From Henricia sp. BOLD:AAB3569 (lineage: Eukaryota > Echinodermata > Asteroidea > Spinulosida > Echinasteridae): a DNA stretch of 64,000 nucleotides. The position numbers were made by a program, and so were the translations under genes. The stretch covers positions 62,001 to 126,000 of the forward strand of contig JBBELK010000937.1 of assembly GCA_037783545.1 (NCBI GenBank), read 5' to 3'. The notes beneath the pieces were generated by a model. It ran no database searches. It had not been told where the DNA came from and saw nothing but the letters and a program-made list of their open reading frames with translations. Of the stretch, positions 7,692-64,000 are shown one piece after another; position 1 is the stretch's first letter; every line of letters begins with the position of its first letter.

Positions 7692-7955
7692 GCATTGGAG
7701 TTGTTGACACCACAGCACCAGTCATCAGTGGATGTGACGCCGCCGCCACCACAAGAACAATCCCATCTACAGCCACTTCAATCCAAGTATCCTGGACTGA
7801 GCCCACAGCTACGGATAACTCAGGCCAACAAGTTGTCATAGTCCAATCCCACCGTCTTGGAGACACGTTCACACTCGGCGTGACTACAGTCACTTACACA
7901 TTCACTGATAATTCGGGAAATCGGGCAACGTGCATGTTTTCTGTTAGTGTTCAAC
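7692..7955 (+). CDS. HYR-A exon, cassette copy 2
   Basis: The exon lies exactly 3052 bp downstream of the copy-1 exon, with the same splice sites and the same translation. Confidence 0.9.
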
Positions 7956-8441
7956 GTAAGTACTTTCAATATTTTTACACGTACCAATTTGAATTAAATT
8001 AGGCCCACTGTCATTTGCAATGATCCGAAATGTCAACGATTTGACTAGGAAAACCTTTCTCAAATTAAAGATTTAATTCGTAGCAACTATCCAATAAAAT
8101 GTTTCCACCCGAGATTTGTTCAGAAATTAATCTATGAAGATGAAATTTATTTAGAAGAAGCCGGCTCTCGTGAGATTGAAATTTCTTAGTTGGCTCGCAT
8201 CTGGGCGGTCCGAAATGGGCGCTGTGTATAGGCTGCACGATTCAGGCTTCGCATGCTTTTTTGTAGGTACATGTAGGTTATGTGCATGTGCACCGTATTG
8301 TGTGCATGTGCGTGTTCTATTATGAAACTGACTATTAAGTGCCGTGGGCCAGACTAAAATGTGTTTAAAACCAGCTCGGTCCTTCATTTAAGACCATCTA
8401 CGTGAGGTGCTCTCGGCCAATAGGGATGCATAAACTGTATT

Positions 8442-8635
8442 TATTTTTTTATTTATTTATTTACCACATCCAACAGCGGAGGGACTGCCAATTACAGGAA
8501 TGGGAGCAAGTGTGGTTGAGTGCCTTTCTCAAGGGCACAGGTGCCACAACCCGTCGCGGCCCGGAATCGAACCTACATTCTAGTACTAGCACAGGAACTT
8601 AAGTTCGACGCACTAGGCCGCTCGGCCATAACACC
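8442..8635 (-). mobile_element. tRNA-derived SINE, cassette copy 2
   Basis: Same SINE as at 5390-5583, with one visible base difference near the B box flank (CTACATTC instead of CTATATTC on +). Confidence 0.72.
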
Positions 8636-9146
8636 CCAATGTATAATGTATTTATGATAAATGGACCCTTAAAGTAATTTCCACATTTGGCATTGTGGGT
8701 AAAGTTGACCAATCCACATCCCAGGTGCCATTAAGTCTGCTGTGGGCAGCCAATGGTCCAATTTCATAAAGCCTGTTAGATGCCATCCATAAAGTATGTA
8801 CATGTACGCACGGAGGGGGAAGGGGAGTTGGAGCCAATGCATACACCCAACGTTAAAGCATATGGGTGACGTCAGGAAATATGCATGCAGGGGGCGAGGG
8901 GGGTCGTGCATACGTACTTTATGGATGGCCACTTAGCACCTGTTTTCTGCTCAAAGCAGTGCTCTTTCTATTTAGAAGACCCATTCTCTACTTAAGTACT
9001 TAGAAAACCAAACCATGTGCTAACTTACCTTTTTGTGGCATTGTGACACCATTGAAATATGATTGTAACCCATATTGTCTGCAGCTTGTTTGAAGGGCTT
9101 CCTCTTACTTGGCTTAATATTGTCACATCTGTTATGCAATGTGTAG

Positions 9147-9407
9147 GTCAGGGCTCAGGCGCAGTAAACATTAATGGCTGTCCAACACAAGGAGTGACAA
9201 CCACCGCCCCAGCGGGTGCTACCAGTGGCACTGCTTTCTGGACAGAGCCTACTGCAACAGGCACGTTTGGTCAGACAATTAATCTTATCCAACGGTCGCA
9301 TACACCTGGAAGCCAGTTCAATGTCGGCCAGCCAACACAAGTCAGTTACACATTCGCCTCCAATGCAGGCGCACAGGCTCAGTGTGTTTTCACCGTGACT
9401 GTCAATG
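9147..9407 (+). CDS. HYR-B exon, cassette copy 2
   Basis: The exon is 3052 bp downstream of the copy-1 HYR-B exon. Sequence and splice sites are the same. Confidence 0.88.
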
Positions 9408-10740
9408 GTAAGGGTCTTTTTTTTGTACGCTTCATTGTATTTGGAGGCCAAGTGAGACTGTCCAATTTATATGGCTACAACTTGAAATTTCACCCTTTCA
9501 TCACAGAGGGAAAAAATCGTGGGAGGAGCTTCAAGAGTTGGACAATTTAAGAAACTTTTGGTTAAACCCTTGGCGTCATAATGTCTACAAGTATACAGCA
9601 AGCATATTTTTGCAATTTTGCAATGAGTAAGTTACGAATTTTATAAGAGTTTAATACAAGTTGTCTCGAATGTACTGCGAGTTTCACAACTTTATTGCAA
9701 ATTAGGCAAGAGTTTCCCAGAGTATGTTATAGACCAATCCGCCATAGCTGGTGGCTTCCAGTGCATGGACTGCGTTTTGTGTTGCTGTTGGAACGAAAAG
9801 CGCTCATCCATTACATGCAAAGACAATCCTACAAAGACGTGCAACTTATTCGAAGTAAATTTCAGCAACAGCAAAAACCATTCATTCAGTGGAAGGCCCC
9901 CAGCTATGGTGGATATAAAGAAGGGGAGTACTCGGCTCTCGGATTTGTGTATAGGTTTACTTCGAGTAAGTTACGAGTATAGTATGAGTTTGGTACTATT
10001 TAAGTGACTTCGGCATTTAGCATGGAAATTGATGCAAAATCATTCATTTACTCTTGCAACTCAACTGGACTTGTATGATATCCAAATCATTGCGAGTTGT
10101 CCCAGATTTGCCAACTCTTAAACTACTGCCAACTCACGCCTGGGAGAGCTGTTTGCAACTAAAGTCCTGACAGAGAATTATCCCCAGCACATTTAAATAT
10201 TTTTACTAACAAAATAAAGAAAACGTTGGGCAGAAAGCATTTATAAATTTGAAACCCTATGCAAAAACTATGGAGACCGACTAAAAAAAATCCTATGAAT
10301 ATTTGTCAACATTTATCCGCAGTTTTAATAGTATATGTACATATGTATGAAGATTTTTCATTATATTTTCACCTTCTGGGAATCAACTGACCATGGTGAC
10401 AGTCTGGTCAAATTTGTTCATAGACCAGGCCGCTCCCAGTCGTGGCCGAGGCCCAAACTCTTCCCGGCCCGGGAACGGCAGTGGACAATTTGTAGGTATC
10501 GACATTGTAAACTGACACGGCCAGTATCCGTTCCACAAAATGGGCGGAGCTTACTGGATCGGTCTATTATTGAAGTATTATAAAGGCTGGCGAAGATTGA
10601 GCAAGATAAACAATATAAGCAATATCTTAACTTGAAAAGTTAGGCAACTTTTTAAATTTTGCTACGCTTGTGCAGATTGTGACACAGCCCCTTTAAAATG
10701 GCATTTTTTTTGGGCACACACCCCATGTCGTCTTGTGTAG

Positions 10741-11004
10741 GCATTGGAGTTGTTGACACCACAGCACCAGTCATCAGTGGATGTGACGCCGCCGCCACCA
10801 CAAGAACAATCCCATCTACAGCCACTTCAATCCAAGTATCCTGGACTGAGCCCACAGCTACGGATAACTCAGGCCAACAAGTTGTCATAGTCCAATCCCA
10901 CCGTCTTGGAGACACGTTCACACTCGGCGTGACTACAGTCACTTACACATTCACTGATAATTCGGGAAATCGGGCAACGTGCATGTTTTCTGTTAGTGTT
11001 CAAC
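10741..11004 (+). CDS. HYR-A exon, cassette copy 3
   Basis: The exon is 3049 bp downstream of copy 2, with identical translation and splice sites. The 3-bp offset fits a small deletion in the intron of copy 2 (near 10389, GTG missing). Confidence 0.9.
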
Positions 11005-11490
11005 GTAAGTACTTTCAATATTTTTACACGTACCAATTTGAATTAAATTAGGCCCACTGTCATTTGCAATGATCCGAAATGTCAACGATTTGACTAGGAA
11101 AACCTTTCTCAAATTAAAGATTTAATTCGTAGCAACTATCCAATAAAATTTTTCCACCCGAGATTTGTTCAGAAATTAATCTATGAAGATGAAATTTATT
11201 TAGAAGAAGCCGGCTCTCGTGAGATTGAAATTTCTTAGTTGGCTCGCATCTGGGCGGTCCGAAATGGGCGCTGTGTATAGGCTGCACGATTCAGGCTTCG
11301 CATGCTTTTTTGTAGGTACATGTAGGTTATGTGCATGTGCACCGTATTGTGTGCATGTGCGTGTTCTATTATGAAACTGACTATTAAGTGCCGTGGGCCA
11401 GACTAAAATGTGTTTAAAACCAGCTCGGTCCTTCATTTAAGACCATCTACGTGAGGTGCTCTCGGCCAATAGGGATGCATAAACTGTATT

Positions 11491-11684
11491 TATTTTTTTA
11501 TTTATTTATTTACCACATCCAACAGCGGAGGGACTGCCAATTACAGGAATGGGAGCAAGTGTGGTTGAGTGCCTTTCTCAAGGGCACAGGTGCCACAACC
11601 CGTCGCGGCCCAGAATCGAACCTACATTCTAGTACTAACACAGGAACTTAAGTTCGACGCACTAGGCCGCTCGGCCATAACACC
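11491..11684 (-). mobile_element. tRNA-derived SINE, cassette copy 3
   Basis: Same SINE as in copies 1 and 2, with a few substitutions (CCCAGAATCG, ACTAACAC on +). Confidence 0.72.
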
Positions 11685-11780
11685 CCAATGTATAATGTAT
11701 TTATGATAAATGGACCCTTAAAGTAATTTCCACATTTGGCATTGTGGGTAAAGTTGACCAATCCACGTCCCAGGTGCCAT

Positions 11781-13596
11781 AAGCCTTTTTGAAGTATGGC
11801 TGCCTTATAGAGGGCACCCTTTGATTTGGGTAAAATAAACCAAAATGGCCGACGCTTGTACGTACGTTTGTGCGGGTGGGTGTACGTTTACATTTTTACT
11901 GACGGCTAAAGCCGCCTTTTTGAAATGACATTTTAGTGCTTAATTACGGTAATGGACGGGTTAAAGATACTCATTTATCTACGGCACAGGATATGTGTTA
12001 ATCTGGCTGATTTAACCCAGCATTAAGGCATAGGATGCGCCTAGCCCGTGGCCTACCCAACGCGCGCACGGTCATATATCAAAATGATGGACACATGCAA
12101 AGGAAACCGACCCAAGTTGGGCTAGGCCTAGTGAAACTTAATAATTTCTGCAAGCCTTGGTCTACTCTATAACGTGCTATGTTTTTGCCTAAAGCCTTAG
12201 CTTAGTAGGGCCTATTTTAACTAGCTAAACGCTATGACTGTTTCCCAAAAGACCAATCAGTGTGTTATGTTTTAATTTGTGTCTTTTGGCTCTTTTAATT
12301 ATAGTCCAGATGAATAATGCAAATGACAGTTTGAGTTTACAAGCAGTAGATCCTGCATGACTGCATGACTGGCTGAAAACCAACAATGTGCCTTATCATC
12401 ATTCCTGGAAGAAATTGCAGCTTTTTCCAAATTAACTTGTTATAATAGTTAAATCTTGTATTACCAATCTTGAAAAAGAAGAAGAAAGAGTTGGGACCCA
12501 AATTTGTCCTTGTTATAAGCATTACTTTGTATTAACAGTGCTCTTATAATCAGTGTTAGACTATTTGTATGTAGTTTTCTCGACACAGGCTCTCAATTAA
12601 TCACCGTTTTTAAGAATTTACCAATCGATAGTACCATTAACTATGCATGTATAGATGCTCTAAAAATCACTCCATCTTAAGCTTCCATGTTATGGTATAC
12701 AGTCAAAACTCTGATAAGAGAACTGCTCATTGAACATTCTGCTCATAATGAAGAAAATTTATTATTCTCCATCGTGTTCATTCCTCATTATTCATAAAGC
12801 TTGACTATGCAAGTTGTAAAACACTAAAAAATACAGCTATAGTACCTGAAATTTTGTTTTGGCCATGGACAAATGAGTGTAAATAAAAAGGCCAAGTGAT
12901 ACAAGATAACTTGAAGCCGCACGACACTGAGTTTATTCATTGGCAAATCTGAAAATACAGATGTCAAAACTGTCAAATAACTTTACATGTGAACTTCCAG
13001 AAACCACGGAAAGAATTGATAACTTGACGTACCATATTGTTTTAGACCTTGGAAAGAATTCCGTACTCGGCCCGTCACATTTTCTAAAGTGCAAATGAAA
13101 AGAACAAATTTTGGAGGGGTAAAAAGTGAAGATTTTACGAGGAAAAACTAAGAAATCTTCCGAGTTGTCTTATACGTTTAGTGCAGGAGGGTTTATGTGA
13201 CGTCCGACTCGTAAATTCTTTCCAAAATATTAATGGTTAAATTATCAATTCTTACCCTATCGGACTTTAGAAACGTGCGTGAACGAATCAGCATTTTTTG
13301 AAGTACGACGTTTTTCACGTATGCTAGGCAAAACAATAACGAAAACGATCAAAATCTGCCACAAACAGACCAAAAGTTGTTCTTATACAATAGACAATTA
13401 TCCTATTTCCAAAACCACGTACAATATTGGTCGTCAAGTTATCTCTAAACAATCAAACAGATGCAGTTTTGATAAGCATTTTAATACAACAACGTACACG
13501 CTACGGTAACCGTCTGCCATTTTTAGATGCGTTTACCCAAATGACAGTGCGCCCTCTAGCGACAGGTATGGTATCCGCCATACCTCAAAAAGGCTT
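11781..13596. mobile_element. 1.8-kb inverted-repeat DNA transposon, non-autonomous, only in cassette copy 3
   Basis: It starts AAGCCTTTTTGAAGTATGGC and ends with the inverse of AAGCCTTTTTGAGGTATGGC. Imperfect inverted similarity continues inwards (GAGGGC, ATTTGGGTAAA, AAATGGC) for about 100 bp. Comparison with copies 1 and 2 shows a clean insertion with a 2-bp AT duplication. No transposase-like ORF is visible, so a longer relative would have to mobilise it. An internal segment (about 13047-13215) is itself an inverted repeat and is shared with 58730-58920. Confidence 0.8.
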
Positions 13597-13996
13597 ATTA
13601 AGTCTGCTGTGGGCAGCCAATGGTCCAATTTCATAAAGCCTGTTAGATGCCATCCATAAAGTATGTACATGTACGCACGGAGGGGGAAGGGGAGTTGGAG
13701 CCAATGCATACACCCAACGTTAAAGCATATGGGTGACGTCAGGAAATATGCATGCAGGGGGCGAGGGGGGTCGTGCATACGTACTTTATGGATGGCCACT
13801 TAGCACCTGTTTTCTGCTAAAAGCAGTGCTCTTTCTATTTAGAAGACCCATTCTCTACTTAACCATGTGCTAACTTACCTTTTTGTGGCATTGTGACACC
13901 ATTGAAATATGATTGTAACCCATATTGTCTGCAGCTTGTTTGAAGGGCCTCCTCTTACTTGGCTTAATATTGTCACATCTGTTATGCAATGTGTAG

Positions 13997-14257
13997 GTCA
14001 GGGCTCAGGCGCAGTAAACATTAATGGCTGTCCAACACAAGGAGTGACAACCACCGCCCCAGCGGGTGCTACCAGTGGCACTGCTTTCTGGACAGAGCCT
14101 ACTGCAACAGGCACGTTTGGTCAGACAATTAATCTTATCCAACGGTCGCATACACCTGGAAGCCAGTTCAATGTCGGCCAGCCAACACAAGTCAGTTACA
14201 CATTCGCCTCCAATGCAGGCGCACAGGCTCAGTGTGTTTTCACCGTGACTGTCAATG
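13997..14257 (+). CDS. HYR-B exon, cassette copy 3
   Basis: The exon sequence matches copies 1 and 2. The flanking intron has a 17-bp deletion relative to copy 1 (about 13860), upstream of the exon, and splicing signals are unaffected. Confidence 0.88.
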
Positions 14258-15394
14258 GTAAGGGTCTTTTTTTTGTACGCTTCATTGTATTTGGAGGCCA
14301 AGTGAGACTGCCCAATTTATATGGCTACAACTTGAAATTTCACCCTTTCATCACAGAGGGAAAAAATCGTGGGAGGAGCTTCAAGAGTTGGACAATTTAA
14401 TAAACTTTTAGTTAAACCCTTGGCGTCATAATGTCTACAAGTATACATAGCAAGCATATTTTTGCAATTTTGCAATGAGTAAGTTACGAATTTTATAAGA
14501 GTTTAATACAAGTTGTCTCGAATGTACTGTGAGTTTCACAACTTTATTGCAAATTAGGCAAGAGTTTCCCAGAGTATGTTATAGACCAATCCGCCATAGC
14601 TGGTGGCTTCCAGTGCATGGACTGCGTTTTGTGTTGCTGTTGGAACGAAAAGCGCTCATCCATTACATGCAAAGACAATCCTACAAAGACGTGCAACTTG
14701 TTCGAAGTAAACTTCAGCAACAGCAAAAACCATTCATTCAGTGGAAGGCCCCCAGCTATGGCGGATATAAAGAAGGGGAGTACTCGGCTCTCAGATTTGT
14801 GTATAGGTTTACTTCGAGTAAGTTACGAGTATAGTATGAGTTTGGTACTATTTAAGTGACTTCGGCATTTAGCATGGAAATTGATGCAAAATCATTCATT
14901 TACTCTTGCAACTCAACCGGACTTGTATGATATCCAAATCATTGCGAGTTGTCCCAGATTTGCCAACTCTTAAACTACTGCCAACTCACGCCTGGGAGAG
15001 CTGTTTGCAACCAAAGTCCTGACAGAGAATTATTCCCAGCACATTTAAATATGTTTACTAACAAAATAAAGAAAACGTTGGGCAGGAAGCATTTATAAAT
15101 TTGAAACCCTATGCAAAAACTATGGAGGCCGACTAAAAAAAATCCTATGAATATTTGTCAACATTTATCCGCAGTTTTAATAGTATATGTACATATGTAT
15201 GATGATTTTTCATTATATTTTCACCTTCTGGGAATCAACTGTGACCATGGTGACAGTCTGGTCAAATTTTTTTCATAGACCAGGCCGCTCCCAGTCGTGG
15301 CCGAGGCCCAAGCTCTTCCGGCCCGGGAACGGCAGTGGACAATTTGTAGGTATCGACATTGCTAACTGACACGGCCAGTATCCGTTCCACAAAT

Positions 15395-16670
15395 TATCAC
15401 TGCATGGCCGCGCCGCGCAGTGGATAGATGGGGCAAGGACTATTGGCTGTGCCCGGGGCCATGCCCGCCTGCAAGCAAGAGCGGGCGGTCAACTCTGGGC
15501 GCAGCGGGGCGGCCAGCAGTCGATTTCACGAAAGAGTGCGCAGCTTGCACAACTTGGACAGAGGCAAAATGGCGCAAGCCCAATAGCTTGCGTGTTATCA
15601 GCGCTAAATTGTGGGCTTACGCAAATGCGTAAGTTTCGTGAAATCTGCTGCAGTTCATGCAAAAACATGCGCGCGCATACACACTACATGGACAATTCAT
15701 GGCGCCATCTTAGTAACTATAGACTTGCACAAGTCTGAATCGCGACTCGTTGCAGTCGCGGTCTGCACACACGTCCAGTTTACATGCAATCACGCACACA
15801 TAGAAGTGTTATTGCATGAACGGAAGTTCAAGACTTGGACAAGTCTATTTATTGTCGCTGTTTTCTTGCTCGGTAAAAACAAGATCGTCCATGCTTGCGT
15901 AGAAAAAGCGGAAAAAAATATCTGCTACGCTCAACAAAATTGCGAAACATGCAAAAAAAAGCACATTAAAAACACAGAAATACGTGTACAGACATTTCAC
16001 ATGTACGGCATGGGTCTGTTTTAATGCATAGTTCCGAGATTGCCCAATTAACCCAGCCCCCTTGGATATTGTTGCTATGCCTCGCACGTTATCGTCAAAA
16101 TGTCCACACACACTGCACAAACCAATCTGCTTTCAACGGAAAGCACAGATTCAATGGAGAAAACTTAAAGGTATTCATGTTTCAGGGTCGACAGTTACTG
16201 TAGCACGCACATGTACATGTAGTAAAAGGCCAGTGATACAGAGATGTAATATATTCATAACAATTCGCTTTCTTACCTTTGAATAGTGAATTGCTAGGCC
16301 TTGAAACCAAAAATTTACCCAGAACACCACATACAACGTATGGGCAGAAAATCGCGTGATGTTGGTTTGTGAGGCAATGCACTTTGACCTATGTGGGCGC
16401 TGTCTGCTAGCCCTGTTGTGATTGGTCGGCGGGTTCAGTTGATTGACAGGTCTGAACTATGCATTCAACCGGACAGCCGGGCCATTTGGGGAGGCTTTCT
16501 AGCTGGCCCGAGACCATTTCAACTGCCATTTGACCAACGGACCAGTGCTAATTCGAACGCTGCCCAGGGTGCAGTACTTCCCAAGTCTCTCCTCTTGAGT
16601 CCCCATGTCATGTTATGTGCAGTGCATGTCAGAGGGTTAACAACTGTGGTTTGCTTTCTTGTACATGTAG
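15395..16670. repeat. Intron with GC-rich patch and repeats
   Basis: 15400-15520 is a GC-rich unique patch. 15525-15645 has short inverted ends (TTTCACGAAA...TTTCGTGAAAT) of a small MITE. 16030-16475 is the left arm of a diverged inverted pair whose other arm lies at about 18800-19000 and 19690-19840; a third relative lies at 24000-24420. No HYR exon is seen. Confidence 0.45.
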
Positions 16671-16931
16671 CTCCCTCGATTGACAACATTGTCCCAGAGA
16701 TCACAATCCCTTGTCCAACTGGTGTGATCGTTAGTGCTCCAGCTGGTGCTACAACATTTACTGTCGGTTGGACGCCCCCAAGTGCCAGGGATGACTCGGG
16801 CACCGTCAACACATTTCGCTCCCATGACCCTGGGTCCATCTTCATTGTTGGCACATCTACAACAGTCACCTATAGATTTATTGATCCCTCGGGCAATATG
16901 GCATCCTGCAGTTTCCTTGTCACTGTTAACA
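16671..16931 (+). CDS. HYR exon 9
   Basis: The exon is 261 bp, acceptor ttgtacatgtag, donor AACA|gtaagt, phase 1-1. HYR landmarks are IPCPTGV, WTPPSARDDSG, SHDPGSIF, YRFIDPSGNMASCSF. Confidence 0.87.
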
Positions 16932-17611
16932 GTAAGTCTTCTGCCTCAAAGCTTTCCAAACTTTACCAGGCCTTGAAATAACCCAAGGCACCACGACAAA
17001 TTGCCATCGGTGCCCTATGCTTTTGCCGTGTTGCCCTTAAAAAGTTCCAACACAAATTTTCCATTTCCTCATTCAGGAGGCCTTTACTAGGAGAAAATTG
17101 CTGTGCCCTTTTGAAAATGAATTTGGAGGTCTGCTTTACTTACAATATACGGTTCAAAAAAGAAATGCAATTATATCCCGTCTTGGAATACTGCAATTTC
17201 ATTGGTCCAGAACGGTCACATGTCCAGTGCATAGAAACAACTGAATAACAATGACAGATTCAAATTTTCTTCATATCACCCTTCGCGTGTATGCAAATTT
17301 CTTTATTTAACCCTGCCGTATGCAAATTTCTTCATATCGATCTAGCGCGAAAGCGATGTGCGTGCGCGTTGTGCGTCTCCATAGCATGCGTAACGCGCTG
17401 TACTAACGCTCCTGTTGGTAAAATAAACTGTGTTACGCCCGCTAGACAATGCATATCACTTCAATATTCCACACGCTATGTGCCGAAACAAACTGGTACA
17501 CGAGTACATAATTTTGTCAGTGTTGATGTTAGTTTGCAGCGGTTCACGATTTCAGCGTGTATTGTGCAAATCGACCTTTCCCAGCACATCTGCCTCAATC
17601 CCAGTTTAACC

Positions 17612-33861: not shown

Positions 33862-35828
33862 TTAAACATACACGTAGAATCCACTCGCCGTGACCCCCGG
33901 CGAGGCGTTAGCTTCCATTTTCGGTTTAAATGACTGCCGTTTCCTAATGATGTCCTGCTTTGATCGACCCCTTCTAGTGTCCAGCCTCTTCTCGGGTCGC
34001 AGAGTCGGCTGTTGGTCGTTTCCCGGCAGCGTTTTTCCTTGGCAATCCCTGGCGAAGTGCCCCATTTTCTGGCACTTATAACACTTGTCCTCCGGTGTTG
34101 CAGCTCTCCTCGCAAGCTGCCTATAGACCCGCTGCCTATAGACCCTATAGTCCCGTCGCCTCTCCGGAGGCGCAGGTGTCTCCGGATTCTTCTGTTCGTC
34201 TTTTATGGTCTGGTGGTATTGCTTTAGATTGGTTCCCGATCCCTATAGATTGGTTCGCCTATTGCGAAAATATAGGGATCGGTAAAGGGCAGCCATGACG
34301 GGCAGAATTCTGCCCGTCACGTGGTTATTATTTTTTTTTTTTTAGTAAGTGCGCAGATTTTGCATTGACATTTGTAACTTGGCCGTGCGTGTCGAACATA
34401 TCCAATTATGTAAATAAAGTACATTGCCTAAAGCAAAGGGCTTGGCCAATTTTTAAATATAAAAAAACAATGCGCACGCGCAAAGACGACCAATTACAGA
34501 TCAAGATGAAGCGCCCTTTACCTGTCCTTATATTCTCCTGTGTGGAATATGTGGACGGGAACCAGTCTAGTATTGCTTCAATTGCTTTACCACATGCTTT
34601 ACCGCTATGATGGCGTCCCGATATGGATCGTCATCGTCGCGTCCCATACGACATTTCTTGTCTCCTTTTCCACTTCTTTGTTCCTCAATCTGCTCAAAGT
34701 TTTCGGTAGCCAGAGCCGCCCAAATCGCGTCATTCAGGGTGGCCGGCCGTGATCGGAAAACTGCTTCGCGAATTGTCGGGCTGGCGATAGCATCAGAAAA
34801 ATGCCCGCGGGCCAATCTGTCTCTACTCTCATCTGAGAGTTCCGGGTAAGACAGGGCGGCAAGTTCCCGCACTGCCTCACCGAGTTCTTGCAGCGTTTCC
34901 TTGGGGCCTTGGCGACGGTTTCTCAATTCCATGAGAAAATTATCTGCCATCTGTCCCGGACCAAAACGCGCAGTTAGTAAGTCCATTAGCTCCTTGTAAC
35001 TAAATCGTCGATCCTTTTTCTCTCCTTGACGACTGGTCAAGATTTTCACGGCCGGTCCTTGGAGACTAGCTGCAAGATAGGCCGCGGCCTCATCGCTCCA
35101 ACCGTTTATCTGCTTATAACAGGCCTCGAAGTGTTCCCTGTAGTCTATCCATGGTTGTTTTCCCATTGATGACAGAATCTGTCTGGACAATCCTTGGGCG
35201 CCTCACGTCATAACCGAAGCGCTTCTTCCATTGCTGCTCTCCACGAAATCTCGCGTCCCTCCTTAATTCTAATGGGACATCGGGAGAGACCTCCTTGTCC
35301 TCCATCCCGTCAATTGCTGACTCTACATCTGGAGTACTCGTTGCGCCTCTTGCGTCCGTCGGAGGTGCAACATTGAGTTCGCTGTCATCCTTTGACTGCC
35401 TTTGTTCCGTGGACCTCGCCAGTGGCCTCCGCGTTCTATCATCAATCGCCCTCACTGGCGTAATGGCGCTCTGCTGTATATAGCGCCTCAGACTTGGTCC
35501 TTTGCATCACGCTCGAGTGTTCCGACACAGAGCCATATCCTGTGGTTTCCATGGCGCCTCTTGCGCCTCGCTTAAACTCTATCTCCTTGTCGGCCTCATC
35601 AGGCCTCATGTGAGTCAAGCTCGAAGTTGCAACCAGAAGCTGTTTAATTTGGGCCTCTGCTTGCTCCGTCTCCCTCTGTAGGAGGCGAAATCTCTCATTT
35701 AATTCCCGCATGGCTCGCTCACGAGTGGAGGTGCCCATGCAATCTCCTGGTTTGTCCGCACTCATTGTGCTTCGTGCGCCTCCTGTAAATTCGGATGCCT
35801 CAATTGAAGTTTTTGTCGAATCTGTCAT
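33862..35828 (-). pseudogene. gag: Ty3/gypsy-type gag, broken
   Basis: The reading starts at an ATG at 35828 and needs frame changes near 35450, 35185 and about 34560. The central part (34567-35190) has a retrotransposon capsid-type sequence (YREHFEACYKQINGW, AAYLAASLQGPA, RFGPG, ETLQELGEAVRELA). A zinc knuckle CYKCQKMGHFARDC lies at about 34045-34090. No protease, reverse transcriptase or integrase follows; coding ends near 33862 in unrelated sequence. It is a truncated LTR retrotransposon copy. It lies directly downstream of the tandem leader repeats. Confidence 0.8.
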
Positions 35829-35834
35829 TTGCTA

Positions 35835-37165
35835 TTATTTGGGACACACTTTGACCAAATTCCCGTCACAATCTGGGGTGAGTCAACGGCCGTCCAAAGG
35901 TACACCAGCGCAGCGCAGGGTGTCCCAACAGCCACGGTTAGGGGAGTAGCCACGTAGCCGAACTCCGTTTTCCCTACATCCTTAAATTTCTCGGCCATTT
36001 CCCAGCGAAAATCGGTCAATTTTGCAGTGACAAGTGCGGAATATATACAGTTTGAAGCATGCAAAATTTGAAGTTCGTTGGAAAATTCCTTGATTTCCAA
36101 ATTTGCCGGCATTTGGGACACACTTTTGCTAAATTCCCGTCACAATCTGGGGTGAGTCAACGGCCGTCCAAAGGTACACCAGCGCGGCGCAGGGTGTCCC
36201 AACAGCCACGGTTAGGGGAGTAGCCACGTAGCCGAGCTCCGTTTTCCCTACATCCTTAAATTTCTCTGCCATTTCCCAGCGAAAATCTGTCAATTTTGCA
36301 GGACAAGTGCGGAAAATATACAGTTTGGAGCATGCAAAATTTGAAGTTCGTTGAAAAACTCCTTGATTTCCCAATTTGCCGTCATTTGGGACACACTTTG
36401 ACCAAATTCCCGTCACAATCTGGGGTGAGTCAACGGCCGTCCAAAGGTACACCAGCGCAGCGCAGGGTGTCCCAACAGCCACGGTTAGGGGAGTAGCCAC
36501 GTAGCCGGGCTCCGTTTTTCCTACATCCTGAAATTTCTCGGCCATTTTCCAGCGAAAATCTGTCAATTTTGCAGGACAAGTGCGGAATATATACAGTTTG
36601 GAGCATGCAAAATTTGAACTTTGTTGGAAAATTCCTTGATTTCCAAATTTGCCGGCATTTGGGACACACTTTGACCAAATTCCCGTCACAATCTGGGGTG
36701 AGTCAACGGCCGTCCAAAGGTACACTAGCGCAGGGTGTCCCAACAGCCACGGTTAGGGGAGTGGCCACGTAGCCGAGCTCCGTTTTCCCTACATCCTTAA
36801 ATTTCTCGGCCATTTCCCAGCGAAAATCTGTCAATTTAGCAGGACAAGTGCGGAATATATACAGTTTGGAGCATGCAAAATTTGAAGTTCGTTGGAAAAT
36901 TCCTTGATTTCCAAATTTGCCGGCATTTGGGACACACTTTGACCAAATTCCCGTCACAATCTGGGGTGAGTCAACGGCCGTCCAAAGGTACACCAGCGCA
37001 GCGCAGGGTGTCCCAACAGCCACGGTTACGGGAGTAGCCACGTAGCCGAACTCCGTTTTCCCTACATCCTTAAATTTCTCGGCCATTTCCCAGCGAAAAT
37101 CTGTCAATTTTGCAGGACAAGTGCGGAATATATACAGTTTGGAGCATGCAAAATTTGAAATGATC
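35835..37165 (-). repeat. About five tandem ~275-bp leader monomers upstream of gag
   Basis: Each unit (minus strand) contains AATTTTGCATGCTCCAAAC, GGAAATGGCCGAGAAATTT, GTGGCCACTCCCCTAACCG and a GTGTGTCCCAAAT end. Units are highly similar with small indels. A single diverged unit precedes LINE ORF1 at 54190-54458. Units are partly open in frame, but no known protein is evident. Confidence 0.85.
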
Positions 37166-54075: not shown

Positions 54076-54189
54076 CACATATTTCACTTCTCTCGCTGCG
54101 GACCGGCTGTATATATGCATGCATGACATTAGGAGGCGCGGCGCGATACCCGATTGTGATTGGATATCCGTGCAACAATGCTAACGATT

Positions 54190-54458
54190 TGGAAGTCAAG
54201 AAATTTTCCGACGAACTTCAAATTTTGCAGGCTCCAAACAGTCTATATTCCGCACTTGTCCTGAAAAATTGACAGACTTTCGCCGGGAAATGGCCGAGAA
54301 ATTTCAGAGTTTAGGGAAAACTGGGCTCGGGCTTCCTGACTGCTCTGCAGACCGTGGCTGTCCGTACACTCTTCTTTGGTGTACTCCTGACTCGTGCGCG
54401 TGCTCAGGCTTGTGGATGGTCGTTGACACACCCCAGTTTGGGACTTGTGCCGTGAACC
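54190..54458 (+). repeat. Single leader monomer directly upstream of LINE ORF1
   Basis: It matches, by eye and in the same 5'-to-3' orientation relative to the coding start, the ~275-bp monomers at 35835-37165: ACGAACTTCAAATTTTGCA, TATTCCGCACTTGTCCTG, GGAAATGGCCGAGAAATTT. It is more diverged than the gag monomers are from each other. It ends a few bases before the ORF1 ATG (54459). Confidence 0.75.
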
Positions 54459-55825: not shown

Positions 55826-55957
55826 ATGGAATTTTTAATTTCCAGTGTGAATGTTAACGGTTTGAGAAATCACGATAAGCGCCGTCGAATTTTCGGCTCG
55901 TGCAACGGCAAGAATACCGATATTCTACTGTTGCAGGAGACCCATGAAAGAAGCTAA
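55826..55957 (+). pseudogene. LINE ORF2, N-terminal fragment of AP endonuclease
   Basis: ATG 55826 opens MEFLISSVNVNGLRN...DILLLQETHE, the first two motifs of an AP-type LINE endonuclease (N in VNVNGL, catalytic E in QETH). It ends at a stop in non-LINE sequence at 55957. The rest of the domain resumes near 61835. Confidence 0.85.
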
Positions 55958-56015
55958 GGTTCTCTGAGGAGAGGGACCCCTCTCGGCCTTGGACTTCTGC
56001 ATAGCTTCTTTCCTC
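55946..56015. repeat. Two-part hairpin at the LINE/RAG-like junction
   Basis: GAAAGAAGCTA at 55946 is inverted at 56003 (TAGCTTCTTTC), and an inner GAGAGG/CCTCTC pair lies between. It marks the boundary of LINE-derived sequence. Confidence 0.6.
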
Positions 56016-56143
56016 ACTAGGCAGTATATGCAGCAGTAGCGTGCTACAAAATAAACGTAAGGGGACACATGTTAAGTGCGAGGTAAAAAGACACTACATG
56101 TATTACCGGTATGCTCGAAACAACTGAACAAGTGAATTCGTAC

Positions 56144-56220
56144 CATTGGGTCCTAGGGTGCCATACAGCTTCGTCAGAAGTTCATAATCGCCGAAACAGA
56201 ACAGCCTGATGGTGTGGCCC
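56144..56220 (-). CDS. RAG-like exon E (FGDYE motif)
   Basis: It follows acceptor tgacaattacag at 56221. It completes the Arg codon left by exon D and reads GHTIRLFCFGDYELLTKLYG then TLGPNG. A donor ATG|gtacg at 56143 is possible; reading through instead reaches a stop at 56103. FGDYE sits where RAG1 has its second catalytic Asp (the GTGYD region), and family members would be expected to continue into a C-x2-C zinc motif, which is absent here. Confidence 0.65.
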
Positions 56221-56322
56221 CTGTAATTGTCAAAGACACAACACACCGAAAGTGGGTTTAAAATTAATAGGCAAAATGAAACAAATTAAAAACACAATCC
56301 CTCTCCAAAAACAAAAGCTCAC

Positions 56323-56583
56323 CTCCATTTTTCTGCAGAAAGGTCACTAATTTGGCTTGTAACTTTTGGCAGTACTCTATGTAGATTGCAGGCCGAGTCA
56401 TTTCCCTCAAAGCATGCGAAAACAACTGTGTTCTGAAGGCTGTTTGGATGGTCAACATTGACGATCTGAAATGCCATCTTGAAGGACGACCCCCCCCCCC
56501 CCCCCCCCCCCTTGTCTCCTCCGACCTTTACCCAGATTTCATCGGTTGGGATGACATCACCATGCCAGGTTAATGAACCACAC
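56323..56583 (-). CDS. RAG-like exon D (GGD motif, poly-Gly)
   Basis: The exon is 261 bp; acceptor tacatgtag, donor TGGAG|gtgagc. It reads CGSLTWHGDVIPTDEIWVKV, then GGDKGG, then a run of Gly from a long G homopolymer. SFKMAFQIVNVDHPNS, FACFEGNDSACNL and EKWR follow. GGD is the proposed first catalytic Asp. The G tract keeps the frame as sequenced but inserts several extra glycines into a motif-proximal loop. Confidence 0.7.
56490..56513. repeat. Poly-C/poly-G tract inside exon D
   Basis: A C homopolymer of more than 20 bases (+ strand) coding for Gly on the minus strand. Length errors here would shift the frame. Confidence 0.85.
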
Positions 56584-56674
56584 CTACATGTACATGGATG
56601 GAGAAAGCAAAAAGCAAATTTAGTTTTCCGAAGATGTACATGTAAGTGCAAATTAAAACGTCTTTTTGTCAAAC

Positions 56675-56822
56675 TGATTTCACGAAGACTTTCGACCGTC
56701 ACAAATACCCAAATCCATCTCAACTCGCCGAAACCATTTGTAAGTTTGCCACAGGTTCGGCGAGTTGCGATGGATTTGGGTACTTAGGACACATCGCAGG
56801 TCTTTGTGAAATCGACCCCTGG
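56675..56822. mobile_element. MITE/foldback in RAG-like intron C-D
   Basis: TTTCACGAAGACTTTCGACC / GGTCTTTGTGAAATCGACC ends and an inner ACCCAAATCCATC...CTCGCCGAA pair with their inverses. Confidence 0.65.
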
Positions 56823-57078
56823 TGGCACAAAAACTGTACATGTACCGTCACACAAACTCCCCCCCCCCCGCCCCCCCCCCCCCTCCAATCCAGGGGAAGT
56901 ACCAGTTGAACCAGCCCCAAAACAAAATGTACCGGTACATGTATACTAGTAGCCACAATTTTATATACAGAGTACGACAACTCTGAAAGAAAAAGGTTTT
57001 CCCACTAAAGAACAAAGTTTAAAGTGCTATATATGACCAAGAGACTGTAACATGCTCAATGGACTTGTATGTACTTAC

Positions 57079-57288
57079 TTGTCAAGTCTGTCAAGATAGT
57101 CCAGCACCATCAGGCGAAGGTTATTAACTCTGAAAAATGGCACCATTCGATTTTCAAACCCATGGGACCCTTTGGCCTTCAAGCTTGGAAAGACCAGTTC
57201 CACCATTTCCCCAACTAAGTAGTCTTTTAGAAGATGCTTTTGCTGCGATCTCATTGATCTTTCCGATGCTATAGTTGGCCCTATGTAT
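57079..57288 (-). CDS. RAG-like exon C
   Basis: The exon is 210 bp; acceptor attttttacag, donor GACAA|gtaagt (strong consensus). It encodes YIGPTIASERSMRSQQKHLL, then an acidic/hydrophobic stretch (DYLVGEMVELVFPS), ending MVLDYLDRLDK. I recognise no known domain; by position it corresponds to the segment before the DDE core. Confidence 0.7.
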
Positions 57289-57408
57289 CTGTAAAAAATA
57301 GAAATCAAAAACTTTTAAATACAGTAGACTGTTAAAGATCTTTTTATGATTGTACAATATACATGTACATCATGTACATTCCGTAACTTTGCAAATGATG
57401 TGAAATAC

Positions 57409-57593
57409 CTGCGTAGCTTCCTCATTTGGTCCCATGCAAGGTGGCAATCTCTCATCATTGCCAGAGATACGTTAGCTGAGGCTATGTTGGGGGGTGAAGG
57501 ACGCTTGCACAATGTTGAGAGGCCTTCCTCTCCAGCTCCTGGTTTACAAGGTGAGCTTGCTGACTCGCAGTTTTGGTGTTTTTTTGACACTTG
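57409..57593 (-). CDS. RAG-like exon B
   Basis: The exon is 185 bp; acceptor tgcccttattcag, donor CGCAG|gtattt. It starts in phase 0, matching exon A. It encodes a Cys/Pro-rich start (NCESASSPCKPGAGEEGL), then IASANVSLAMMRDCHLAWDQ and MRKLRR. The helical AWDQMRKLRR leads directly into exon C. Confidence 0.72.
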
Positions 57594-58199
57594 CTGAATA
57601 AGGGCAGGCTGTATAATTTTTGTTTTAAAGAGAAAAACCAAATGCAGTTAATGCATATGCATGAATTAGAAGCGATGTTGATTTGCATAATAATCCAAAT
57701 GCACAAATTAGTAAACCGTACGACGTGTGTAATTTAATAGAAAATGTAATTCAATATCATGCAAACGGTACTGTCTACAGTTTGGTAATGATGAATGTTA
57801 AACCCTTTTGAGCACATGTGAAGTTTTTTTTTTTAAAACAACATTTATATATTTCATGTGCATTAATGTCTCCAGATGTAATTATATTTTTATAAGGGAC
57901 AACATGTGACATAGCAGTGTAAAATTTCATACCGGACAGGGTTTCCCCCAGGATTTTCCCAAAGCGTAGTGGCCTGCTAATTTTTTGCGTAAAGTTTGCG
58001 GTGAGGGGACGCGCGAGCGCGCCGCGGCTTAACACAACTACATCAAAGGAAATTTAGTTTCCAGCAGCAAGACAGGCAATTATAAAATGATTTATTTATT
58101 TTCTTCAACAGCAGGCCTCATAACATGTATAGTGTAAACAAATTATAAAATTAGTCTATCACTATCATGATTAATGTCGCTGTTCTTATGTCTCTCCAC

Positions 58200-58297
58200 A
58201 GTGAACTTCATCAAGCTGATGCAAGGTTGCTCTATCCAGACCTGTGATCCACTCCGACACTTTCGACCATGTCTTTTGCAAAGACTCCAAAGCATCC
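58200..58297 (-). CDS. Exon-like minus-strand piece in the RAG-like intron
   Basis: After acceptor tattgttag, one frame reads DALESLQKTWSKVSEW then ITGLDRATLHQLDEVHC and a stop (58186). AATAAA lies about 90 bp downstream on the same strand. Its phase does not fit between exons A and B, so it would belong to another transcript or be a relic. No known domain. Confidence 0.25.
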
Positions 58298-59124
58298 CTA
58301 ACAATAAAATAATAAAAGAAGTTTGAGTAATGTGTTAGTATTGTGATTACTTTATTATATGCTGATATGCACGTCAACATGCATTAAGTCTACTGTATCT
58401 AAATCCCATAGTGCTTTGCAGAAGGGCGCCCTCTGTTGGTGAAACATGATTGCCGACATACATGTATAAGCCAGTTCGGAATCTCGCGAGCGCAATGAAC
58501 GTCTATGGGATTGTGTCAAGGTCATTTGAGATAAACACAGGTCATTTGAGATAAACACAATGCATACCGCTTTGTTTATCTCAAACCAAAGTCGGGAGAC
58601 GCATGCGCAGTCGAGACTCCGAACTGGCTTATTATACCTTCATAAGGTACGGTAGGTAAAAAAAATGCCCCCACAAAGTGTAAATTTGATTGGAAAACAT
58701 TCTTTGAGCAATGAGAAAAATCCAGTTTGGAAAAAAATCCGTACTCGGACGTCACTATTTTTTCCTTGAAATGACCTATTAAGCATCAATAAGTGCAAAT
58801 CGAAAGAAAAGAAGAAAAAAATTGGAGGGATATATTATTATAGGCCTAGGCCCTACTACTACTAGGAAAAACTTAAGTTTTCCAGGGTGCAGAAGGGCTT
58901 GTTAGTTATTTCCCAACCATCTAAAACAAAATTAAAAAAAAAAAAAGATAAATTTTCTTCGGGAAAAATTGTAACGAATTAAAACTAAGTCTTAGGCCTA
59001 AAGTAATTTGACAATCTTAATACCTGTCCCGTCGTTGACGATCACAAGCCAATTATACGTCTTCGTCCATTCTGGGTCCACGCCGGTTTTTCATCTTAGG
59101 CAGTGGTGGTTCGACGGTGGGTAG

Positions 59125-59254
59125 ACCTTGAAGCACAGCATTTTGTTGATTTTCAGGTGTTGATCCGGCGTCAGTTCAACTTCCACCACTTCCTCTGGTG
59201 GTGTTTCTTTTCTCCGTTTTCCAAAAAACGATGTTATCAAACTGGACGAAGGCA
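59125..59254 (-). CDS. Possible first exon of an unknown gene in the RAG-like intron
   Basis: On the minus strand an ATG at about 59254 opens MPSSSLITSFFGKRRKETPP, then an acidic stretch (EEVVEVELTPDQHLKI) to KMLCFK, followed by donor-like AAG|gtctac. FFGKRRK resembles short N-termini of some transposon-encoded or nuclear proteins. There is no phase link to 58200-58297 without an additional exon. Confidence 0.25.
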
Positions 59255-60131
59255 TTTTGAATGAAGCGAAGCGTGACGACAGAAAAAGAACCGAGAAAAG
59301 AATGACGCGTCGATCTCGAACACGTTGCAAGCAGGGCGAGTTTGTTCCAGAAAGACATGTGCAATCACTATCGCTGGTGTGCGTTACCACTATCGCTGTG
59401 TGGTGCGTAATGCGAGCGCAGCATACCAGCGAAGAAAAAAATGACGTCATTTTTAAACTTCATTCTAGTCCGTCCAGTGTTTCTCTGCTTGCATTTTGCA
59501 TTTTGCAGCGCACTGCGTTTAACAGCGACCGCATTGTGACATCGTGCGAGTGTTAACAATGGACTTTGGATCGTCTAACTAGTCCATTCGGCCTGCCGGC
59601 GCGCTCAATCTCGAACGCAAATCCGAAGTGTTTTTTGCCGGACGTTTTCGTGATCGATCGTGGGGAATTTTTGCGGGCGGCTTTGCCGAAGCGTAGCGCT
59701 GCAAATTTAAAGCGTTGCGTTCAAAATTGAAGAGTTGCGGCCTTTTGCCGATGCGTAGCGGCACCGCTACGCTACAACGCTTATGTAAATAAAATATCAA
59801 AGTTGTGTCGATATATTGTGCAATAATGAAAAGGGAATAAAAGTACTGTTGGATTTCATTTCGAAAAAAAAAATGTGTTTTTACATATATTCATTTTACT
59901 GTGTGTTTTCACTACAGTCGAACACTGATAGTAAGAGAACTTTTAATACAAAGAATGCTTATAACTAGGAAACTTTAGTCCCGAAGACCTTGTATTATCA
60001 GTGTTCGACTGTACTTATCCCAAGTCTTTGTTTTCAAGACTGATAATACAAGATCACTGTTATAACAAGGTAATTTACAAAGTCACAAGGACCTTGTATT
60101 ATCAGTGTTTGACTTTATTTGTAAAACTTAC

Positions 60132-61175
60132 TCGTCCTCCGGTGTTGAGAATTGCTTCTCTATTTTGAAGTTGCAATTTCAGCCAGGTCCATTTGTCTGC
60201 AGCCTTTTCTATCTCCAAAGGTATCGGCTGGCCCCTTTGGTGTTTCAGTGCTTCCTCTCGCAATAGTCGGGCAGCACTAGTTACTGGAGACGGCTGTTGT
60301 CTCGTCTTGGCCTCACTTACAGATGGATCACTTGACTTGACTACTGTCACTTTAGATTTTGGCTCTGATGACTGAGTAGGGTCACAAGTATGCTTGATCA
60401 GTGCATCATACTTTCCGATCGTTGTGCATTTGGTGCACACCAAGGCCAAATTCCTCAATTGTACATTAAGAATTCGCGGACTCCGAGTAACTTGATCAAA
60501 GCCAACTCCCTCTTTACACACAGGGCAAGGTACTGACTGCTTTTTTTGGCACTGAAAATATTTTGTGAAACATCTTGCGCAGAAGTTATGTTCACAGGGC
60601 AATTGTAAACATGGCGAGGTTAATAAACAAAGGCAGACTGGACAGGTAAACAAGCATTGTTCCTCCTCTCTGCCAAATATTTCGATGCAAGGATCAAATT
60701 CGGAGATGGTGTCCGTTATACCACAGAAAATGTTGTCTGCTGACAGTGAAAATGGCAAATCAACGAGAGGGGTGGAAAACTGCTTTCCAATAACACGTTT
60801 AGAGTGGTGTAGTCTCCCTGGTTTGGAAGTGTTCATGTAATGGAGGCAAATAGGGCAGTCTCCAGTTCTCTGGTGCTTTGTCCAATTTATTGGAGATGTG
60901 GATGCAGTGTCGTGAATATAATCCTGTGTTTGTGCCTTATAATGTCTTACTTTACGTGAACACTTCTCGCAGAGAGCATTAGGATGTTGATCTGAGCTGT
61001 CATTCCATGTACTAATTTGAAAAACTGCATCAATTTCTTTCTGGTTGTCCTTACACAAGGTCGGTGCACGAGTCAGTGTCGCCAATTGGCTCGCTGTTGC
61101 TCTCCTGTTCCCACAAATTCTGCACAGTTTGATCAGAATCTCTCTGTGACGATCAAAACTCAAAGCCTGGGACAT
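60132..61175 (-). CDS. RAG-like exon A: RAG1 N-terminal-like zinc-binding and RING region
   Basis: The exon encodes 348 codons from ATG 61175 to donor GGACGA|gtaagt. Visible zinc ligands, in RAG1-like order: C18-x2-C21 (LCRICGN); H64, C69-x2-C72; W98-x2-H101 and C107-x2-C110 (GDCPIC). Then comes a C3HC4 RING: C178-x2-C181-x12-C194-x-H196-x2-C199-x2-C202-x14-C217-x2-C220. A C247-x2-C250...H262-x-C264 finger follows immediately. Vertebrate RAG1 has the same series ahead of its recombinase core. RING domains of this type have ubiquitin-ligase activity; activity here is inferred. The tail (about 270-348) is basic and helical (ARLLREEALKHQRG, DKWTWLKLQLQNREA). Confidence 0.82.
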
Positions 61176-61834
61176 TGTAGATGATATATCTCATTGTTAT
61201 CACTTAAAAAGCAAACGATGGAGGGCGATTATTTAGCCTACATGTAGTTTCACATTACATTATCCACTGCACACGAAAAGCAGCATTCAAGTTTCGCGCG
61301 CAACGTCGGCCGTGCGAAGTACATGAACATGCATTTTGTGCACAGTACAATACACGTAACGAACGTGCGTGCGTAATGTTAGAAGTGTTTTAGTGCAATT
61401 TTCTCCGCCAAGATGGAAAAAAACTGTCCATTGCCCACTGACAAAAACCCAAGTGTTTGTTCGACAGACTGTTCTTTGCCACACATGTAAATTCACATTT
61501 CAAATAAAAATTTTGAAAACGTCGAAAAATAGGTTTTTGTAGGACGTCGATTGAAGTTCGAGTTTCCCGAAATCCGCCGCCAGTCGGTCGAAAAAAAAAT
61601 TATTTTCAATTTTATTTCGGCTCATCAACACTAATAAGTCATGGAAACTGATACGATATATAAAAGGCCATCACTTGGTGTTAGAAACGGGAAAGTTTTC
61701 CGTGTATTCTAGTAGAAAAATCGATTTGTAATCGAAAAAAAATTCAACGTCCATGGGCGCCGCCATCTTGTTTGCGTGACGTCATTCGCGCACACTGGAG
61801 TAATGCGCACAGTCACGCACAATAACATAACAAC
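61176..61834. other. Upstream flank of the RAG-like gene
   Basis: This is the presumed 5' flank on the minus strand, ending where LINE sequence resumes at about 61835. It contains two ATGGCGG-like inverse motifs (CGCCGCCATCTTG at 61757) compatible with an initiator-type promoter. I see no clear terminal inverted repeat with the 55.96-kb end. Confidence 0.35.
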
Positions 61835-64000
61835 CACACGGGCCACACTTTATTGTACACGCGCTATGGGAGTGAAACAGCCGTGGGAAACCCACGGACC
61901 TCTTCCGGGATGACAACGGTCGAATTTTGTCCCTCACAATTACTTTACCAAACACTGATAAAAAGGTTCGTATCATTAATGTCTATGCCCCCAATGACCG
62001 GGGGGAAAGAAAATCCTTTTTTTCAACTAAGTTGCCACACCATTTTCACGGCTTTCGTCATGTTATTTTTGGGGGAGATTTTAATTGTGTTCCAGAACCT
62101 GCCATAGATTCGAAGGGAGATTCTGTTGAGGGAAAATCCGGTATAAAGGAATTTAATAAATCAGTTGCAAATTTTAATTTATTAGACTGCTGGCGGGAGC
62201 AAAACCCCGACCAGCAGCGTTTCACCTGGCACAATAGTGCACAAAACCAAGGGACAAGAATCGACCGTATTTATCTATCGCGGGAGTTGTCTGTGGGTTC
62301 CCTTAGTGAAATTGCCGCTTTTCCGTGGTCCGACCACGACATGGTATGCACTAAAATCACGGGGGGGATTTCAAACATTGGAAAGGGGTTTTGGAAATTG
62401 AATTCTAGTCTTTTGGGAAATGTTTTGTTTCAAGACACTATTAAAAGGGAGTGGGATTTTTGGCGAACGCAAAAAGGGGAATTTCGAAATTTAAGTGACT
62501 GGTGGGAGGAGGGGAAATCGGGCCTAAAACGAGCGACAATTTCTTTTTCCGTCGGTTTAGCGCGTCGACGTAACTCTGAACGTAAAGACCTATTACGTAA
62601 ACTAAACGATTATCAATGTAATTTAGACAAAGGTGACGCTTCATATGGTGTTAAAGTTAAAGATATTCGTTTTAAGTTGACACAATTAGAGAGAAACCAT
62701 CCAAATTTCAGTTCTTTTCAGCACAAACGTCCTAAGGTTCCCGGTGAAACGATTAATTTTGATTTAAATAACGATGATGATTTAAAACGCATGGATAATT
62801 TAAAAGACAAACACGGCAATATAATTTCTAACTCTAAGGATATGACCAACCACTGCAAAGAATTTTATTCAGACTTATATCAGCACCTTTAATTAGCCAC
62901 AATGACGTAGATTTCTTTTGTAGTTCTGTTAACAGACATTTAAGTTCAGAGGACCGTGACTCTCTCGAGGGTCCGGTCACTCTTCTTGAATTGAGACGGG
63001 CATTGTTCGATATGGGCACTGGCAAAACACCTGGCTCCGACGGTTTTTCTGCTGATTTTTATAAACATTTTTTTTTATGATTTGGGTTCTGACCTTTGCG
63101 ACTTGATTAACGAAATTGTTAATAATGGGGTTCTCACAGATTCACAAAGATTGGGGTTTATTACTTTGCTGTACAAGAATAAGGGGGAGAGGGGGGATCT
63201 GGGTAATTGGCGACCGATTTCTCTGCTTAACGTTGATTACAAGTTAATTGCCAAGGTGCTTGCTAACCGACTGCGGGGTGTTCTCGATCGAATCATCGAT
63301 ATCGATCAGACCTGCTCCGTAGTCGGTCGGTCCATATCGGACAACGCCCATCTCCTTCGAAACGTTCAGAGTTACGTCGACCAGAAAAACCTGGGCGCTA
63401 TTTTCGTGTCTCTCGATCAGCAGAAGGCGTTCGACAGGGTTGACTGGGAATATCTTCGGCGTGTTTTGGATACCTTTGGCTTCGGTGACAATTTCAAAAA
63501 GTGGGTGGGAATATTGTATAAAGATATTAAAAGTTCAGTTATTTGCAACGGGCATGTTTCGGATTCCTTTCCTTTATTTCGGGGTGTGCGACAGGGATGT
63601 CCCCTGTCGCCCCTCTTGTACATTCTTTCTTTAGAGCCTTTGGCGGCAGCGATCCGTAACGATGTTAATATTCACGGGGTTAAAATGCCGGGTGGGACCG
63701 AAGCCAAAATGTCCATGTACGCCGATGATACCACGTTGATCTTGTCGGACGAGCGCTCGGTCGCCCGAAGCTTTCGGCTGATCGAGAGATACGAGCGCGC
63801 GTCCGGGGCCAAGCTAAACCAAAGGAAAACGGGTGGCGTTTATCTAGGCCGATGGCGAGGTCAGATGCATGGTCCGGTTGACATCAATTGGGTAAATTCC
63901 GTGAAAGTCGTTGGGGTGGAACTCGGGTACGGAGAACACAAAGACAACATTTGGGAGGAGAAAATAATGAAACTCAGGAAAACAATTGGAGAATGGGATG
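61835..64000 (+). pseudogene. LINE ORF2 continued: endonuclease C-terminal part and reverse transcriptase (runs off window)
   Basis: After a degenerate start, the frame from 61880 reads DDNGRILSLTI, VRIINVYAPN, HVIFGGDFNCV and FPWSDHDMV, the later AP-endonuclease motifs. A shift near 62885 and another in a T run near 63070 lead into the reverse transcriptase: KTPGSDGFSADFY, NWRPISLLNVDYK, the QQKAFDRVDWEYL motif, FRGVRQGCPLSPLLY and MYADDTT (catalytic YADD). The motif style matches the L1/Tx1 group. Translation continues to the window end. Confidence 0.85.

Follow-up and report, generated by a model that had tools for sequence, protein, structure and literature searches.

The minus-strand gene between positions 61175 and 55949 of the 64,000-nucleotide stretch of contig JBBELK010000937.1 analyzed here (the window, numbered from its own first nucleotide) is interpreted as the transposase gene of a Chapaev-type DNA transposon (CMC/CMCT clade) from an echinoderm, probably a sea star, in a copy that is nested and 3′-truncated; we put the probability of this reading at about 0.9. 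The gene encodes a RAG1-type zinc region and RING finger followed by part of a recombinase core of the Pfam family DUF1280, and the copy interrupts open reading frame 2 (ORF2) of a long interspersed nuclear element (LINE). An earlier note on this DNA, made without database searches, had proposed a spliced RAG1-like gene in which the RAG1 N-terminal region is joined to the first half of a DDE recombinase core.

Exon structure

The five minus-strand exons A to E of the earlier note were all recovered, with GT donors and AG acceptors throughout, phases (0, 2, 2, 2) that agree, and no stop. Exon A (61175-60132) encodes the Chapa zinc region, the RING finger, a post-RING zinc finger, and a linker. 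Exon B (57608-57409) begins the recombinase core and is followed by exon C (57288-57079), both being supported by their splice sites and by alignments of relatives. Exon D (56583-56323) carries the DUF1280 region and the first catalytic Asp (residue 508, in GGDKGG), and exon E (56220-56144) carries the second (residue 583, in FGDYE). The note had overlooked a sixth exon, F (56043-55949), which starts in phase at 56043, contains a CxxC zinc pair 19 residues past the second Asp, and is then cut off, the frame continuing to a stop at 55925-55927 in LINE sequence. The spliced A to F protein is 636 residues long to this stop, with the last few residues representing antisense LINE.

The window protein was found to be 50% identical, across 98% of the query, to a 989-residue protein of Asterias amurensis (P0001), and in this alignment junctions A, C, D, and E have no gaps and junction B has two gap columns. 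Of seven relatives compared, none had a gap at junction D or E, and P0015 alone, with one gap column, had one at junction C. Junctions A and B had 2 to 4 gap columns in several of the seven, close ones included (P0003 for A; P0001 and P0002 for B). Because the junctions align nearly gap-free with the relatives, the exon joins are more than chance. One relative, P0004, apparently reads from exon A into the intron at the equivalent position, and an Asterias isoform, P0006, has an apparent retained intron at the E/F position.

There are two long minus-strand G runs in this gene, at 56490-56511 inside exon D and at about 56859-56883 in the intron before it. The run in exon D adds five glycines immediately after the first catalytic Asp, and these are absent from the seven relatives that cover the site. 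Within intron 1, an exon-like stretch at 58297-58150 was rejected, there being no Pfam match for the frame at 58189-58383 and a misfit to the protein family. The same intron holds inverted-repeat sequences at 58466-58632 and 59913-60120 that resemble small nested non-autonomous elements, and a sequence related to the latter is present at 12429-12562.

The RAG1-type front end

The N-terminal region was evaluated in an alignment of six sequences (the window protein, P0001, P0002, P0004, P0015, and P0017). The three Chapa zinc pairs C18-C21, C69-C72, and C107-C110 (60846..61124, minus strand), the RING finger C178..C220 (60516..60644), and the post-RING CCHC zinc finger C247, C250, H262, and C264 (60384..60437) together provide 18 candidate zinc ligands that are invariant in all six sequences, or 19 Cys/His columns if H10 is counted. 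The zinc ligands reported in exon A are thus real. The RING finger was matched by Pfam RING models, below their cut-off, and by fold, and the post-RING finger was recognized by alignment of its ligands.

A profile of the six sequences, searched against the whole Protein Data Bank (PDB), had mouse RAG1 as its top match (E 1.3e-15), colinear over RAG1 residues 99-373, and it also matched a RAG1 N-terminal fragment without the RING at E 4.1e-10. A profile of only the first ~90 residues matched the same fragment at 1.6e-10, with the best non-RAG1 chain at 0.096. Thus, the exon A family has the profile match to the RAG1 N terminus on which the earlier interpretation depended. The Pfam model RAG1_imp_bd matched five of the six members at E ≤ 0.1, and P0004 exceeded its curated cut-off (37.3 versus 23.3 bits). 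When exon A was modeled by itself, the structure was of poor quality (mean predicted local distance difference test score, pLDDT, 48.6), with only the RING part usable; the best fold matches of this part were LNX and TRAF RING structures, the RAG1 dimerization domain (1rmd) being at rank 14.

It was also observed that the Pfam model zf-AD (PF07776), of the zinc finger-associated domain (ZAD), weakly matches the first two zinc pairs in RAG1 (E 0.0041), P0017 (4.4e-4), the window protein (0.0022), and P0004 (0.092), all below the curated cut-off; it was not among the Pfam matches of P0015. The Chapa profile had 13 matches in the PDB with no ZAD chain among them, and the lead is therefore weak. 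Among the papers retrieved, none was found that unites RAG1 with “zinc finger-associated domain” or with ZAD.

The recombinase core

The window protein matches DUF1280, which is the Chapaev transposase core (the family name is from PMC3985635), at E 6.9e-16 and with 59 bits where 25 are needed. The GGD and FGDYE motifs singled out in exons D and E are real, in that they are the first two acidic positions of this family and are invariant in six aligned rows. The window core thus carries D508, D583, and the CxxC at +19, and it is cut off before the HxxxxH pair and the catalytic Glu. This loss lowers the claim of a working copy but not the kinship with Chapaev.

A search with a core profile identified at least 27 proteins among the 7,995 candidates scored, with named sources that comprise sea stars, a brittle star, a sea cucumber, a sea urchin, lancelets, Hydra, and a coral; a crinoid relative came from a separate sequence search with the window protein. 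One further entry, Em0016g378a, we take from its code to be probably of a sponge. Relatives from the sequence search and the core-profile search were pooled (29 in all) and scanned with a motif script. The second Asp was called in 21 of the 29, with CxxC exactly 19 residues later in 18 of those 21; the script missed P0001 (the wrong Asp was taken, and the alignment shows the same spacing), P0006 (the apparent retained intron), and P0009 (a stretch is missing). Both HxxxxH and the last Glu were found in 22 of the 29, always 21 residues apart. The core of intact relatives has the order Asp, Asp, CxxC, HxxxxH, and Glu. We take the RAG1 residues of the D, D, H, and H positions to be D600, D708, H937, and H942; RAG1 C727/C730 can be read from the profile alignment, and E962 from PDB entry titles.

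The modeled core of a relative matches the RAG1 fold, with ~16% identity in the structural alignment, and so the family is predicted to have the DDE fold that the earlier note expected. The core profile had two matches in the PDB at E up to 10, neither of them RAG1 or Transib, and therefore the link of the core to RAG1 rests on the modeled fold and on the placement of the family by Pfam and the literature. A single-sequence PDB search with exons B to F returned nothing credible (seven matches, best E 0.47). In Pfam scans of the window protein, P0001, P0002, P0008, P0015, and P0017, the matches at E up to 1 included no RAG1 core model, the filters of these scans dropping most weak matches.

A tree of the window protein and 19 of the 29 relatives paired the window with a Patiria miniata protein (support 99/100), within a clade of nine rows that, besides the window, are all echinoderm by name (100/100). 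Most inner forks of this clade have weak support, and the clade does not include the proteins of the sea cucumber and the sea urchin. From this placement, the host of the element is an echinoderm and probably a sea star. The cluster of P0001 represents 20 sequences.

Insertion into a LINE

The N-terminal end of a LINE ORF2 endonuclease lies on the plus strand to the left of the element (55826..55945, from protein alignments), and ORF2 resumes to its right (61888..64000) with endonuclease and reverse transcriptase (RVT_1, E 2.6e-37) until it runs off the window. In alignments with six LINE relatives, the protein halts after QETH at 55945 in all six; it resumes with KPTDLF at 61888 in three and at 61894 in one, and the other two run through stops to 61741-61747. 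The six closest ORF2 relatives all have 39 residues between QETH and the following Trp, which is the one that precedes the point of resumption. The break after QETH and this spacing indicate that the LINE is interrupted and that part of it is missing.

The right border of the element lies between about 61740 and 61887, and a position near 61885 is favored. By this border the remaining insert is ~5.94 kb (55946..61885, minus strand). The candidate 5′ terminus CACGGCTGTTTCACTCCC (61868..61885, minus strand) adjoins the resumed LINE frame, and a second candidate, CACTCCCATAG, starts at 61873. In the favored reading, the insert extends from 55946 to 61885 or 61873, so that the minus strand would begin CACGGCTG or CACTCCCATAG, and about 105-120 nt of the LINE were lost. 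Both candidate ends are of the CAC type, the right border being uncertain; the other end and the target-site duplication, 2-5 bp long in Chapaev (CMC/CMCT) transposons, are not present in this copy. CA..TG termini are described as usual in the CMCT clade (PMC12730594). With up to 3 mismatches allowed, the candidate terminus matched the window at one place only, and no second end was seen.

In another reading of the border, 61741-61788 is LINE sequence and the element stops near 61740; the LINE would then have lost about 69 nt, and the ~97 nt at 61789-61885 would form a small insert of their own. The position and frame of the stretch favor this reading: the plus strand of 61741-61788 reads NSTSMGAAILFA*RHS compared to TNSSCGVAILFSKRHS of the LINE, resembling the segment just before the resumed ORF2 and in the same frame. 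In a six-frame scan of the window, this stretch had the best score (35.2), but one hardly higher than the 34.0, 33.7, and 33.5 of stretches at chance level. Against this reading are the lack of similarity further left and the promoter-like motifs on the minus strand of the stretch, namely a cAMP response element (CRE)-like TGACGTCA and a YY1-like AAGATGGCGGC, as we presume would be expected of the transposase gene's own promoter. It was because of these motifs that, as a matter of judgment, the border was kept near 61885. The 3′ half of the gene is missing under either border, and because family placement and truncation are independent of this choice, the probability of the overall explanation is unaffected by it.

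Other features of the window

HYR-domain exons are present at 6004-6576 and 16388-16978 in a region of about 6000-17000, where a 3-5 kb unit seems to have been duplicated recently, given the near identity of the reading frames at 6004, 9056, and 13906. A retrotransposon gag fragment (PF03732, E 3.3e-5) lies on the minus strand at 34570-35202. At 35917-37159, there are five units ~270 bp apart that are ~83% identical to 54187-54384, upstream of the LINE ORF1.

Discussion

The interpretation of the locus as a truncated, nested Chapaev-type copy has to be weighed against several observations. The window protein itself falls below the Pfam RAG1_imp_bd cut-off (16.4 to 21.8 versus 23.3 bits), and its best Pfam RING match, at E 2.7e-5, reaches 24.5 bits where 25.2 are needed. 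The fold was modeled on a relative rather than on the window protein, and the first ~160 residues of that model are of low confidence. At the locus, there is no visible 3′ inverted repeat or target-site duplication, the LINE-like segment at 61741-61788 is at odds with the favored border, and the truncation may be an assembly error. These points count against our interpretation, which we nevertheless consider highly probable.

The RAG1-type N terminus and the RAG1-like core fold would also suit a RAG1-like (RAG1L) gene of a RAG transposon of the TransibSU/ProtoRAG kind, or a RAG1L fossil, and RAG1L transposons are reported in sea stars (PMC4411706). This is very unlikely, and membership in RAG1L was rejected, since the core is DUF1280: Pfam scans at E up to 1 gave this family in place of a RAG1 core model, and the core profile had two matches in the PDB, neither of which was RAG1 or Transib. 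In addition, the window protein has the RING that is described as absent from echinoderm RAG1L (PMC7204232), and no RAG2-like gene was recognized by eye among the open frames that remain. The assignment to the RAG1 superfamily in the earlier note holds for a transposase with a zinc/RING front end on a DDE recombinase of RAG1-like predicted fold, as judged by profile and model, whereas the core belongs to the Chapaev/DUF1280 clade and not to RAG1 or RAG1L.

A frame without stops through six exons, with splice sites intact, might instead point to a domesticated host gene in which the N-terminal part and half of the core are kept for a purpose, as in a truncated regulator. A recent insertion would likewise show an open frame, however, and the copy breaks a LINE ORF2, ends in antisense LINE, and has a private glycine run beside the active site; this explanation, less probable again, was rejected because the copy is nested and truncated. 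The “first half” of a DDE core reflects damage to a single nested copy and is no architecture in itself. Scarcely credible is an element similar to N-RAG-TP, with RAG1 N-terminal sequence only, lying beside an unrelated transposase fragment. An element that is wholly RAG1 N-terminal-like has been described in Aplysia (PMC8355894), but here the core follows in the same reading frame of the same protein, and P0001, P0002, P0015, and P0017 join both parts in one chain that aligns across the exon A/B joint.

In intact relatives, a single protein comprises the Chapa region with its three CxxC pairs, the RING and following zinc finger, and a core of RAG1 fold. Because the ligands and the three acidic residues are present and the predicted fold is that of RAG1, such relatives most likely transpose by a cut-and-paste mechanism of the RAG1/Transib kind. 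By analogy with RAG1 and Transib, for which this is established, the core would pair the two element ends, cut by way of hairpins, and insert the element elsewhere. The RING/Chapa part would have the roles that it has in RAG1, namely dimerization, localization, or ubiquitination. Both cleavage through hairpins and activity as a ubiquitin ligase are proposed by analogy only. The copy in the window would have jumped into the LINE ORF2, and the simplest account of its present state is that a later deletion ran from the 3′ half of the element through its 3′ end and one target-site copy into the LINE, part of which was lost with them. The window copy itself is a fossil and very probably dead, and because HxxxxH and the Glu are lost, catalysis by it is very unlikely.

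The earlier note considered the locus to bear on how the RAG1 N-terminal region became linked to a recombinase. Such a link exists, and for this clade it was already published: Kapitonov and Koonin (2015, PMC4411706) describe two Chapaev subgroups with a Chapa domain and then a RING, as in RAG1, and infer that the ancestor shared by Chapaev, Transib, and RAG1 already had Chapa and RING joined to its core. The Chapaevs named in their text are of lancelet and sea anemone, and their Figure 2 adds species including S. purpuratus. Among the best literature matches, this paper alone combined Chapaev with a sea-star word, which is a weak gauge of what is published. The architecture is therefore known, and the echinoderm members and the modeled core match are modest additions. 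They extend the Chapaevs that bear the RAG1 zinc and RING front end by an echinoderm branch, support the published view that the RAG1 N-terminal region sat on a recombinase before RAG1 arose, and indicate by modeling that in such a protein the match to the RAG1 core extends over the length of the core, beyond the catalytic motifs. Intact sea-star relatives retain the RING that echinoderm RAG1L proteins lack, and the full-length P0001 and P0002 of Asterias amurensis are suited to testing the ancestral role of the RAG1 front end. A broader proposal, which is tentative and which we consider rather more doubtful than probable, is that sea stars living today possess transposases that are intact, mobile, and complete in the RAG1 layout and have no RAG2, the RAG1L proteins of the same phylum being without the RING. 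In that case, the front end would be a module of this transposase clade that is old and separate, and its first two zinc pairs might be related to the ZAD dimerization domain. If this is true, the function of the RAG1 front end would be open to testing in the absence of RAG2.

Compared to known systems, the window element is closest in layout to the Chapaevs with Chapa and RING described in PMC4411706, with which it shares the Chapa zinc region, the RING, the DUF1280 core that follows, and a candidate CAC-type end, and from which it differs in being truncated and LINE-nested. It shares with vertebrate RAG1 the order of N-terminal zinc pairs, RING, and post-RING finger, the predicted core fold, and the CxxC after the second Asp, but it belongs to another Pfam family, its core is ~16% identical, it represents a transposase and not a V(D)J recombinase, and its remains give no sign of a RAG2 partner. 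The RAG1L proteins of TransibSU/ProtoRAG are paired with RAG2L, and those of echinoderms are reported to be without a RING (Martin et al. 2020, PMC7204232). Transib (HzTransib), as described in PMC7204232 and PMC4411706, is without the N-terminal zinc/RING part, whereas exon A of the window is joined in frame to the core. The N-RAG-TP of Aplysia likewise has a RAG1 N-terminal-like region in a mobile element; that region is all that is described there (PMC8355894), whereas here the core is in the same protein.

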